From a virus: 44,573 nt of DNA. Every line of letters begins with the position of its first letter. The stretch's first letter is position 1. Shown piece after piece: positions 1,585 through 15,891 of the stretch. The stretch is from positions 1 through 44,573 of IMG/VR virus record IMGVR_UViG_3300047472_000097. One strand, given 5' to 3'. The notes beneath the pieces are model-generated. The model was not told the origin of the DNA. It saw only the letters and a program-made list of their open reading frames with translations, and did no database searches. A program made the translations under genes and the position numbers.

Positions 1585-2172
1585 ATGCCGTCACTTGTTG
1601 AAATACGGGCCAGAATTTTCCGATCTACCAGCGGAATGTACACCGACTCTTACCACATGGACGATTTGGCAAATGATGCACAAAACCAGTTGGTGGAAGG
1701 TGCAAGACTCCGGGGAGTGCAGACCATATCCGTACTAAACGGTACAGATACATATGCACTACCAAGCAACTTCAAGTCACCCGGTGAACTGCTTTATCAG
1801 CAACCAAATTACTGCACTACAACCTATCCTCTGCTTGATCTGACTTCAAACCAGTTTGGATATTCCATAGAGAACGGAAATATCATACTCAAGCCCTCAC
1901 CGCAGGAAGATCGTGTGCTGACACATTACTACTACAAATATGCCACAACGCTTGTGAATGACGCAGATGTGCCGGAGATTGACCCACAATATCATGATTT
2001 GCTGCACTTCTACGCAGCCGGAATGATTTTGCTCTTGCCTACGCTGAACATTCAAGACAAAACCTTATCAGACCGGTACTTGAAACGCTGGGAAGAAGGC
2101 AAAACGAACTTCATCATGGACATGCAGCGTAAAAACAAATCCAGCACAGGCAGAACGGTGGTGCACTGGTGA
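1585..2172 (+). CDS. Head-tail adaptor (connector) protein
   Basis: This 195-residue protein starts with a helical domain (MPSLVEIRARIF, then a YHMDDLANDAQNQ segment) and continues with a beta-rich part. The arrangement resembles adaptor proteins that bind under the portal ring, such as P22 gp4-like or gp6-like families. It lies after the capsid region and before a second protein of similar build. The GTG start of the next gene overlaps its stop, so the two are probably translationally coupled. The adaptor role is inferred from gene order and general build, not from a catalytic motif. Confidence 0.65.
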   Translation: MPSLVEIRARIFRSTSGMYTDSYHMDDLANDAQNQLVEGARLRGVQTISVLNGTDTYALPSNFKSPGELLYQQPNYCTTTYPLLDLTSNQFGYSIENGNIILKPSPQEDRVLTHYYYKYATTLVNDADVPEIDPQYHDLLHFYAAGMILLLPTLNIQDKTLSDRYLKRWEEGKTNFIMDMQRKNKSSTGRTVVHW

Positions 2173-6335: not shown

Positions 6336-8012
6336 ATGTCAACCAGACTCGAACAACTCCAAGCCGCAGCCAAAGCTAAAACAGCGGCCGGACAGCCTAT
6401 ATTCACCTCAACCGTGAACGCACCACAAGTCGCCACACCAGCGGTGCAGACGGCAGCGGTTCCGGCACCAACACAGAACAAACTAACTCCAGCGCCGCAG
6501 CCTATCGGGACGATGAAGGCCAGCAGCACACCAGCCATATCTCCGCAGATCCAAACGGAGATTCAGCGTAAAGCAGCAGCGGGAATACCCTTAACCAATA
6601 CGAGCAATGCAGCCAATAACGCCGCATATGCCGCAGCCGTTCCAAAAGCTGCAGTTACTCCAGTGGCAACGCCTAAAGCTGCTGTATCGCCTACAGTATC
6701 ACCTACAGCGCAAGCAACGCCTACAACAAACTATGTGGCGCAAGGCGGGAAGACGCTCAACGATATCCTGTATCTGAAGGACAATTACAATGCGTCCAAC
6801 AAAAACTATATCGCCTCACAGGCAAACCCTTTATACGCCCAACTGGACCCGAACACTGCCGCAATGGTCAAAGGAATGAGCGCGGATCAACTCCGCAGCT
6901 ATATCAATGGTATGGGTGCCAAGTCGCCTACAACCACTTCAGAAACATCAATAGAAGAGGTGGTTCCGAAGGATTACCGATCTCTCGCCACCGCAGCGTA
7001 TGAACGTGAGCTTGCTGCCATGATGGCTGGGGCACAGGCGCAGGAAACGGAACTCAATCGAAGAAACGAATATGCTGATTTTAATACAGGAGAAAGACGG
7101 GTGCTGCAAGATTCATCTATAGCAAGAAATGAAGCTCCGGTGGCATGGGATGGTTCTGGCGGCTACCGTGGAGCACAGCGTGACCGGTCAAGAGACATTG
7201 AAGACCATTACACGGATGAAGCACTAAAAGACAATGTAGCAGCAGCATACGCTCAGACAAACGCATTCCGTGATCAGTCAGGTAATTACATCGAGACAAA
7301 GGCGAGTGAATTGGAAAGCGCTGAAAAACAGTACAACCTCCAACTCGCAGGGTTGACTGGGGAAATCAACGGTCAGCAGACCATACAAGGTGCGGCTAGT
7401 GCTGCATCAACCGCAGGTCAGTTACTATCTAACCAAAGTCAAGCTATCTCTAACCAGATCGCACAGATCGACCTTGCTAACTATCCAGAGACTTCACAAC
7501 TCCAAATCAAGCAGCTACAGCAGCAAGTGCAGTCCGGTAAGATCAGCAACGACACAGCGGCGTATCAGTTAACGCAACTGACGGATCCGAATAGCGCAAC
7601 GAACCAAGCGGCGGCGCTTGACCTAGCAATGAAGAGTATTGACGCTTCAAATTATTCAGAGGCAGCTAAACTCCAACTGGAGCAATTGCGCAAAACCGTT
7701 GCAGAGATTGGAAAAACTCCATACCAGTCGGATGCTGATGCTAGGCTGGATCAGTTAAAGGTGCTGACCGCAGAAGCTGAATTGCAAAAACTGCAGGAGA
7801 TCGAAGCCAAGGCAGCAGGGAAAACATATGAAGATTACCAGTCCAATATTGAGAAATTGGCAGTGAGGGATAACAAGACCGGTGCATTGAAAAACCCTGA
7901 TGTGGTAGAAGAATATATTGTGAACTCCGATTTGTCCGAATATGAAATGTACCGTGCCTACCGTGCAAACGGCCTGACATGGGGCGGGGCGGTACCCTCA
8001 AAGGGGGAGTAA
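6336..8012 (+). CDS. Putative internal virion or ejection protein (558 aa)
   Basis: The ATG at 6336 follows GAAAGGAGG. Residues 1-140 are Ala/Pro/Thr/Gln-rich and probably disordered; the rest is rich in Ala, Gln and Leu with long helical or coiled-coil stretches. There is no recognisable enzymatic motif in this frame. The gene lies between the tail fibre and a giant protein, where short-tailed phages carry DNA ejection proteins. Its last codons carry an AAAGGGG slippery heptamer and a stable stem, so part of the product probably continues in the -1 frame into a muralytic domain, giving about 696 residues. It may otherwise end at TAA 8012. Confidence 0.65.
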   Translation: MSTRLEQLQAAAKAKTAAGQPIFTSTVNAPQVATPAVQTAAVPAPTQNKLTPAPQPIGTMKASSTPAISPQIQTEIQRKAAAGIPLTNTSNAANNAAYAAAVPKAAVTPVATPKAAVSPTVSPTAQATPTTNYVAQGGKTLNDILYLKDNYNASNKNYIASQANPLYAQLDPNTAAMVKGMSADQLRSYINGMGAKSPTTTSETSIEEVVPKDYRSLATAAYERELAAMMAGAQAQETELNRRNEYADFNTGERRVLQDSSIARNEAPVAWDGSGGYRGAQRDRSRDIEDHYTDEALKDNVAAAYAQTNAFRDQSGNYIETKASELESAEKQYNLQLAGLTGEINGQQTIQGAASAASTAGQLLSNQSQAISNQIAQIDLANYPETSQLQIKQLQQQVQSGKISNDTAAYQLTQLTDPNSATNQAAALDLAMKSIDASNYSEAAKLQLEQLRKTVAEIGKTPYQSDADARLDQLKVLTAEAELQKLQEIEAKAAGKTYEDYQSNIEKLAVRDNKTGALKNPDVVEEYIVNSDLSEYEMYRAYRANGLTWGGAVPSKGE

Positions 8013-8425
8013 TTAGCCCTACGGCTTCGGCTAGTGGGGCTAAACTCAACTCAAGTCTTGGCGGGTCACTTAAGAACACTGGAGATATCTTCTCTTCGAT
8101 TGGTGCTAAATACGGCATTGACCCTGCTTTGCTTGCGGCTATTGCTGTACACGAGACAGGTAACGGTACAAGCAATGCGGTCAAGACAAAGAACAATGTG
8201 GGCGGCATGATGGGTACAAACGGACTCATGACGTTTGACAGTATCGAAGAAGGAATCGAAAAGATGGCATCTAACCTGAAACGTAACTACATCGACAAGG
8301 GACTGACAACCATCGAAGCGATCCAGAAAAAGTATGCTCCAAATGGCGCGGCAAACGACCCGAACGGACTCAACGATTACTGGGTTAAAGGTGTAACCAC
8401 GTACTACAATAAATTTTCGAAGTGA
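7979..8425 (+). CDS. Glucosaminidase-like muralytic domain, -1 frame extension of the virion protein
   Basis: This frame encodes a lysozyme-superfamily glucosaminidase-like domain: IGAKYGIDPALLAAIAVHETGNG carries the likely catalytic Glu in HETGNG, and further typical segments are NNVGGMMG and FDSIEEGIEKMA. It cleaves peptidoglycan glycans in related proteins. The first ATG (7979) has no ribosome binding site and lies within the upstream gene, and no better start precedes the domain. It is therefore best read as the C-terminal 139 residues (from 8006) of a frameshifted fusion. In the particle it would open the cell wall during DNA entry. Confidence 0.75.
   Translation: MGRGGTLKGGVISPTASASGAKLNSSLGGSLKNTGDIFSSIGAKYGIDPALLAAIAVHETGNGTSNAVKTKNNVGGMMGTNGLMTFDSIEEGIEKMASNLKRNYIDKGLTTIEAIQKKYAPNGAANDPNGLNDYWVKGVTTYYNKFSK
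8000..8043 (+). promoter_or_regulatory. Candidate -1 programmed ribosomal frameshift signal
   Basis: The heptamer A-AAG-GGG (8000-8006) lies in the correct phase of the upstream gene. Six bases later (8007-8012, including the TAA stop) a stem starts: 8013-8022 pairs with 8034-8043 over 10 bp with one G-U pair. Inside it, 8023-8025 pairs with 8030-8032 around a TTCG tetraloop, with one bulged A at 8033. Slippery site, spacing and stem all match the classic bacterial and viral -1 arrangement. There is no T tract, so it is not a terminator. Confidence 0.8.
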
Positions 8426-14973: not shown

Positions 14974-15235
14974 TCTGCTTGCTCAAGTTATGGCCTTTGC
15001 CTCTGTCATGTCTGGAGTAGTGGTTGTGTTACTCAATCTTGTAAAAGCAACAATCACTCTCCCAAAGAATCTTATTCCTATTATCGGGCTTGTTATAGGT
15101 TTGTTAGCAGGTGCCTTAGCTTTCAGCTTTACTGACCTAACATTAGCACCGCGATTGTGGGCCGGAGCATTCGCCGGGCTATCAGCAACCGGACTTTTCG
15201 AGCTTATCAAAAACAATCCAGGAACAACGAAGTGA
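14966..15235 (+). CDS. Holin-like membrane protein
   Basis: This 89-residue protein has at least two membrane segments (around residues 5-30 and 38-58) and possibly a third weak one, with a short charged C-terminus. It lies directly after the amidase and overlaps it by 8 bp, the usual place of a holin that lets the endolysin reach the wall. The ATG is preceded by AAGGAGAG. Its stop overlaps the GTG of the protease gene. The family cannot be fixed by eye, but a small hydrophobic protein in a lysis block is well supported. Confidence 0.75.
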   Translation: MNDLLAQVMAFASVMSGVVVVLLNLVKATITLPKNLIPIIGLVIGLLAGALAFSFTDLTLAPRLWAGAFAGLSATGLFELIKNNPGTTK

Positions 15236-15891
15236 TCAAGCGCATATGCATTATGCTGCTGGTCACTTTTTTTATGCCTGTTTCCGCCGGCGCATATCCA
15301 TATAACCAGCAGCATACCTTTCAGGCGCAACTTGAATCTGCCCGGGCTAAGACAGCCATCGTCACGGCGTACTATACCTCATACTTCGAGGGTACGCGTA
15401 TCCAAGGCACTGGTACCGGTACACTGATCGGTGATGGGCTGCTGCTGACCAATGCACACGTAATCGGCAGTAACACAGGTACGCTGCACATTGATGTGAC
15501 CACCTACGACAAAGTGGTCCATGAAGGAACGTTGCTGCGCATTGACCGGTCCGTGGATCTGGCGCTCATACGCATTGACAGTACCGCAGAGGGCTTTACA
15601 TTGTCGGACACACAAATATACCCCGGGCTGCCCATTATGACTGTGGGACATCCGCAGGGGCTTGCACACTGGAGCTTTTCGGAAGGTGTTGTTGTAGACA
15701 TTGCTCGCCCCTGTATCATGACCTCCGGGGAGCGCTGGACCGCCATCATGACGGATGCACAAGCCATTCAAGGCAACTCCGGTGGACCACTTATAAATGA
15801 CCGCGGGGAAATAGTGGGGATTATGCGGGGAGCAGCAGATGGGTATTCGTTTGCAATTCCAATCGCTGAAGTGAAAGAGTTTCTGCAGTAG
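15232..15891 (+). CDS. Secreted trypsin-like serine protease
   Basis: The likely start is GTG 15232, overlapping the holin stop (GTGA). It gives 219 residues beginning with a signal peptide (MIKRICIMLLVTFFMPVSAGA). The mature part has the full trypsin-fold triad: His76 in TNAHV, Asp109 in RSVDLALIRI and Ser183 in GNSGGP, and looks like the protease domain of HtrA/DegP-type (S1C) enzymes without a PDZ domain. It should act outside the membrane. Its place as the last gene of the lysis block, before a terminator, is unusual. It could attack surface proteins during lysis or act in the lysogen. Confidence 0.85.
   Translation: MIKRICIMLLVTFFMPVSAGAYPYNQQHTFQAQLESARAKTAIVTAYYTSYFEGTRIQGTGTGTLIGDGLLLTNAHVIGSNTGTLHIDVTTYDKVVHEGTLLRIDRSVDLALIRIDSTAEGFTLSDTQIYPGLPIMTVGHPQGLAHWSFSEGVVVDIARPCIMTSGERWTAIMTDAQAIQGNSGGPLINDRGEIVGIMRGAADGYSFAIPIAEVKEFLQ

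Follow-up and report, generated by a model that had tools for sequence, protein, structure and literature searches.

A putative -1 frameshift junction linking exchangeable cell-wall hydrolases to a probable ejection protein in Paenibacillus-associated phages

The locus and its recoding signal

The window, by which is meant the whole stretch of DNA analysed (44,573 nucleotides), is a 44.6-kb virus contig that encodes a terminase, portal, capsid, SU10-type adaptor, integrase, DnaB helicase and Amidase_3 endolysin. A trypsin-like peptidase (PF13365) is encoded near the endolysin, at 15157-15891. The features under study are collected in Table 1. Central to them is the gene for a 558-residue protein, whose 3' end reads ...TCA AAG GGG GAG TAA. 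A -1 frame, open from 7946 to 8425, overlaps this end and encodes a glucosaminidase-type domain beyond the slip site (Pfam, E=9e-11). Slippage at the heptamer is predicted to yield a fusion of 557 + 139 = 696 aa, and the spacer satisfies the criterion for -1 cassettes of a structure placed after 5-9 nt.

These elements had been proposed from a sequence-only reading of the window and were re-derived here. The heptamer in the phase of the upstream gene, the 6-nt spacer, and the 10 + 3 bp stem with its TTCG loop and single bulged A all proved exact to the base. Re-reading of the frames, together with the Pfam match, bore out a glucosaminidase-like domain in the -1 frame, and the proposed fusion length of about 696 residues agrees with the sum above. 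The further claim that some copies of the 558-residue protein are actually extended to this length gains support from the sequences of relatives, and has not been shown experimentally.

Table 1. Features of the window at and around the junction (nucleotide positions; all on the strand shown)
Feature	Position	Strand	Remarks
SU10-type head-tail adaptor (PF24175)	1585..2172	+	
Nozzle-like tail protein, 535 aa	2829..4436	+	P22 gp10/Sf6 gp8/T7 gp12 fold
0-frame gene, 558 aa, helical/disordered putative ejection (internal virion) protein	6336..8012	+	TAA 8010-8012; homologs in about 50 contigs
Slippery heptamer A AAG GGG	8000..8006	+	In phase, one codon 5' of the stop
6-nt spacer	8007..8012	+	Includes the 0-frame stop codon
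Putative stimulatory hairpin	8013..8043	+	10 bp (8013-8022/8034-8043), bulged A8033, 3 bp (8023-8025/8030-8032), loop TTCG (8026-8029)
-1 frame extension, 139 aa post-slip, Glucosaminidase (PF01832)	8006..8425	+	AVHETG motif; stop 8423-8425
Giant gene, putative second ejection protein, 1732-1737 aa	8437..13635	+	1732 aa from ATG 8437; strong SD

Conservation of the junction in relatives

Relatives were gathered by several routes. A search with query P0001 returned four IMG/VR relatives (a first genome scan with it gave no matches), the downstream giant protein led to twelve loci, and an alignment of giant proteins led to four named Paenibacillus genomes. Prophages of Paenibacillus sinopodophylli, P. 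harenae and P. plantiphilus (L018, L020 and L021) are among the relatives. A DNA pattern scan (TCGGGAAACTGANNAGCCC) returned 29 contigs, 25 of which have the same junction. The lysin-bearing loci share one layout, in which a gene of 415-640 aa is followed by a hydrolase ORF in -1 from its end and then by the giant gene; those found independently through the giant gene all conform to it. Pooled over these searches and the protein search described next, about 48 distinct contigs, comprising the window, IMG/VR contigs and Paenibacillus prophages and including some close copies, carry a wall-hydrolase module in the -1 frame and never in the 0 or +1 frame. For the least biased test of the frame relation the query was restricted to the last 150 aa of the upstream protein: a lysin-length -1 ORF was present at the slip site in 25 of 25 loci, and in none of the 25 was the lysin ORF in +1 or in frame. 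At the level of sequence, the signal, the frame relation and their conservation are demonstrated.

Two loci, L019 and L024, have neither lysin nor slippery site and serve as natural controls, which indicates that the gene can yield the short product and nothing else. No INPHARED phage record matched the 558-aa or the 1737-aa protein; the capsid alone was matched, at up to 36%, in Arthrobacter and Microbacterium phages. In these phages no lysin ORF separates the counterparts of the two genes (431 and 1803 aa in Jasmine), and Pfam detected no lysin domain in the shorter one. In Arthrobacter phage Jasmine (L041:21072-25712) and Microbacterium phage Shocker (L042:22181-27636), a gene of ~420 aa is followed by one of ~1800 aa with no lysin between them. 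This retained gene order suggests a related module without frameshift.

Canonical heptamers of four kinds occur at the junction (A AAG GGG, G GGA AAC, G GGA AAG and C CCA AAC), separated from the 0-frame stop by one codon or none. The window's own heptamer is kept in L001, L010, L004 and L013, and the G GGA AAG of L021 is the lambda-type heptamer. At the ends of 18 homologous genes, 12 of 72 codon positions hold an in-phase X XXY YYZ motif, compared with 22 of 9346 in the rest of these genes. The expectation that the heptamer would be conserved in relatives was met only in part: it is canonical in most (11 of the 18 first-set loci and 20 of the 25 protein-found loci), and G5 or T5-6 runs stand in its place in the remainder. 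The seven exceptions in the first set are L003, L007, L008, L009, L012, L014 and L018, and L003 lacks a canonical heptamer even though it is a close relative (63% identity). The G5 form, NNG GGG GAG, is found in L003, L007, L008, L009, L012, L082, L085 and L087-L089, and the form GTT/TTT TTT CAG TAG in L014 and L018. For the G5 form we infer that tRNA-Gly in the P site can shift from one GGG to another, and that tRNA-Glu could pair anew with GGA if a G-U pair is allowed in the middle position. The -1 frame of L009, L015, L016 and L030 becomes open no more than 4-6 codons upstream of the 0-frame stop, which pins any shift to the junction. Sequence comparison supports the view that the differing slippery sites may be functionally equivalent.

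A motif of the type TCGGGAAACTGA..AGCCC was also encountered in four unrelated contigs (L045, L052, L065 and L063), at the end of an ORF of 127-156 codons that is followed by a -1 ORF of 83-106 aa, a layout like that of tail assembly chaperones. That these are chaperone overlaps is an idea based solely on their layout; the most that PHROGs yielded was a weak tail-protein match for L063, and chaperone identity is unconfirmed.

The RNA at the window's junction folds with a z-score of -3.8 relative to dinucleotide shuffles, and only one of 500 synonymous recodings of the -1 frame folds as well. Over 18 loci the recoding test gave a mean z of -3.1, with 16 loci at or below 17/500; the hairpins of L004 (35/500) and L007 (112/500) were not significant. 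When the 42-nt folding energy was averaged over 15 loci from -900 to +450, a single deep minimum appeared exactly at the slip site (-17.7, compared with a profile mean of -6.3 and sd of 1.8). A hairpin lies a few bases 3' of the slip site in nearly every lysin-bearing locus examined, L004 and L007 being weak, and the stems of several relatives are unrelated in sequence. Compensatory stem changes, named earlier as a check on the signal, were found: in the arms of 26 loci the inner stem pairs covary (A-U/G-C/U-A; C-G/G-C), with a score matched by none of 500 shuffles and far above all slid registers. Because these loci were partly chosen through the 5' arm AGCCC and the arms were anchored on GGGGC, only inner pairs 6-8 provide an unbiased test. 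In a full alignment of the nine closest hairpins covariation is weak, since the stem hardly varies there.

Lysin modules and the carrier protein

The hydrolase behind the junction swaps among four Pfam families, an exchange that is demonstrated by domain matches above the Pfam cut-offs. Glucosaminidase is found in the window and L016 by Pfam and in L001, L003, L010 and L030 by close similarity. SLT occurs in L008, L009, L012 and L021, with a shorter SLT form in L013, L018, L027 and others; L004 carries Peptidase_M15_3, and a VgrG3-like C/GH46-like domain is present in L007 (Pfam) and L100 (sequence similarity). Different slip sites carry the same lysin type, and the same slip site carries different lysins. 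The dN/dS of the window's lysin is 0.05 relative to L001 and 0.02 relative to L010, strong evidence, as far as sequence comparison allows, of purifying selection.

The identity of the carrier is less direct, and its presence in the virion has not been shown. The predicted structure of the 558-aa protein is nearly all helix with a disordered N-terminus (pLDDT 58.7) and had no match in a structure search; sequence and fold searches likewise returned no significant match to known ejection proteins. The 535-aa neighbour was modelled with modest confidence (pLDDT 54.6, pTM 0.58), and its top matches among solved structures are podovirus nozzles, namely P22 gp10 (E 2e-11), Sf6 gp8 and T7 gp12. This nozzle fold suggests, on the basis of a model, that the phage is probably short-tailed and the carrier probably an ejection protein. 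The gene order fits a podovirus ejection module, in which nozzle and spike are followed by the helical protein and the giant gene; the latter follows the lysin in relatives as well. The earlier designation of the carrier as an ejection protein is favoured by podovirus synteny, by the helical, partly disordered fold and by the nozzle-like neighbour. It finds no backing in homology and remains an inference, resting on synteny alone given the low pLDDT and the lack of a structural match.

In many relatives the tail genes are separated from the putative ejection gene by one for a small protein whose N-terminus resembles a signal peptide. The one in L019 (L019:6345-6866) has a copper amine oxidase N-terminal domain (PF07833), and similar small signal-peptide proteins are encoded in L007, L011, L013-L018, L027 and L030. 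The giant protein of L015, L016 and L030 has a different C-terminal half (ending ..VPY), matched in L016 by phrog_9854 and phrog_14770, while its N-terminal part is still related, indicating that the giant gene is modular too.

Competing explanations, proposed mechanism and known systems

One alternative is that the lysin is translated on its own, by ribosomes that reinitiate or initiate internally close to the 0-frame stop, with GGGGGAG as Shine-Dalgarno (SD) sequence and GTG, ATT or ATG as start. GGGGAG does look SD-like, a GTG overlaps the stop (GTGA) in L003, L004 and L008, and an ATG in frame with the lysin stands at 7979 of the window. However, the best anti-SD duplex of this ATG, the sole one nearby, reaches only -1.8 kcal/mol, compared with -15.6 and -12.7 at the flanking genes, which upholds the earlier claim that it lacks a ribosome binding site. 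No ATG, GTG or TTG precedes the catalytic region in six of the 18 loci, and no lysin start codon is conserved among relatives, an absence plain from the sequences themselves. Starts present in other loci have weak SDs (best -7.0 kcal/mol), outside the range of true neighbouring starts (-9.7 to -18.2). No spacing separates the GTGs from the SD-like run, an SD is absent from the G GGA AAC class, and canonical heptamers and hairpins would be left unexplained; separate initiation is thus very improbable. Still less room is left for transcriptional slippage, in which stuttering of RNA polymerase at G5 or T5-6 would join the frames in some mRNAs. Such runs do occur in part of the family, but G5 is short for RNA polymerase slippage, the sites of most relatives, G GGA AAC or C CCA AAC, contain no run exceeding three, and a short spacer followed by a hairpin is in keeping with a stimulator that acts on ribosomes. 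The G5 run could also mark an indel, through sequencing error or gene decay, that split one original reading frame. The 25 of 25 loci in -1 and the purifying selection, which is strong in both frames, refute this; the identical layout recurs in about 48 contigs, and relatives encoding both parts in one frame without the heptamer, the finding that would have refuted the sequence-only reading, were sought and none was found.

A more serious reservation concerns the carrier. The frameshift may be real and the carrier another minor virion protein or a transient assembly protein, with the lysin delivered elsewhere. The lack of homology or fold match for the 558-aa protein leaves space for this, and the lambda G/GT frameshift products are absent from mature virions (PMC5009743). 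Against it stand the position of the gene after the nozzle and tail-spike genes and before the giant gene (cf. T7 gp14-16, P22 gp7/20/16), its helical, partly disordered make-up, and a hydrolase cargo that suits entry. We regard this possibility as unlikely, and it is the one among the alternatives that most deserves to be kept in mind.

The preferred reading, to which we assign a probability of roughly 0.9, is that programmed -1 frameshifting makes two products from the gene, a minority of them lysin-tipped and probably packaged as ejection proteins. Most ribosomes would stop at the TAA and release the 558-aa protein. Others, in the minority, would pause at the hairpin, shift from A AAG GGG to AAA GGG and thereby pass the stop, translating the -1 frame to give the 696-aa form ending in a glucosaminidase-type wall hydrolase. 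That slippage occurs, and with what efficiency, is inferred without reporter or ribosome profiling data. Both forms would probably be packaged as internal virion proteins of a short-tailed phage, which would place a limited number of lysin-bearing copies in each virion; these may open the peptidoglycan of a Gram-positive, Paenibacillus-related host during DNA entry. Location in the virion and a role in entry are likewise inferred, no virion proteomics being available. Slip signal and hairpin would be the constant element, and the enzymes exchanged behind them are of the glucosaminidase, SLT transglycosylase, M15 peptidase and VgrG3/GH46-like types. The broader proposition, that widespread short-tailed phages of Paenibacillus-like hosts use such a dosage-setting junction with swappable hydrolases to make few copies of an ejected internal protein enzymatically active, is one towards which we lean with appreciably less assurance.

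If true, recoding in phages would serve not only to decorate virion shells but also to ration a wall-degrading enzyme brought in at entry. With about 48 contigs providing natural variation in slippery site, hairpin and enzyme, experiments can address directly both how the mechanism works and why only some copies are extended. Frameshifted lysin modules are easily missed by annotation, because the lysin often lacks a start codon.

T7 gp16 and Tal2009 are also virion-borne lysins, the dosage of Tal2009 being altered by proteolysis. In T7 gp16, T5 pb2, the TM4 tape measure and Tal, the lysin is likewise part of a virion protein used at entry, but it is encoded in frame and present in every copy, whereas dosage in the window would follow frameshifting. 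Virion-associated peptidoglycan hydrolases encoded in frame are well known, e.g. T5 pb2 and the TM4 tape measure (PMC6116005), and slippage between two endolysin ORFs has been sought and not found (PMC7260188). Frameshift-extended virion proteins are known as well. T7/T3 gene 10A/10B, Lactobacillus A2, SPP1 and lactococcal 936 TpeX extend capsid or major tail proteins (PMC5009743, PMC6669499), likewise by a frameshift close to the end of a structural gene that puts a C-terminal extension on some subunits. What is added there to shell or tube proteins is an Ig-like, carbohydrate-binding or unknown domain, whereas the window has a catalytic wall hydrolase, swapped among unrelated enzyme families, on a putative ejection protein. 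For a frameshift-appended virion lysin no published equivalent was found in open-access papers, in line with the sequence-only reading, which did not know the tagging of a subset of ejection proteins in this way as described. Lambda G/GT shares a -1 slip near the gene end, but its products are chaperones and carry no enzyme (PMC5009743). E. coli dnaX shares the heptamer, short spacer and stem-loop (PMC5009743); its shift gives a shorter product and that of the window a longer one, and the upstream Shine-Dalgarno stimulator of dnaX was not identified here, although it was not systematically tested for. Retroviral Gag-Pol likewise has an enzyme frameshifted onto a minority of structural subunits and hence packaged (PMC5009743); virus and enzyme are unrelated, and what the two systems would share is the logic alone.
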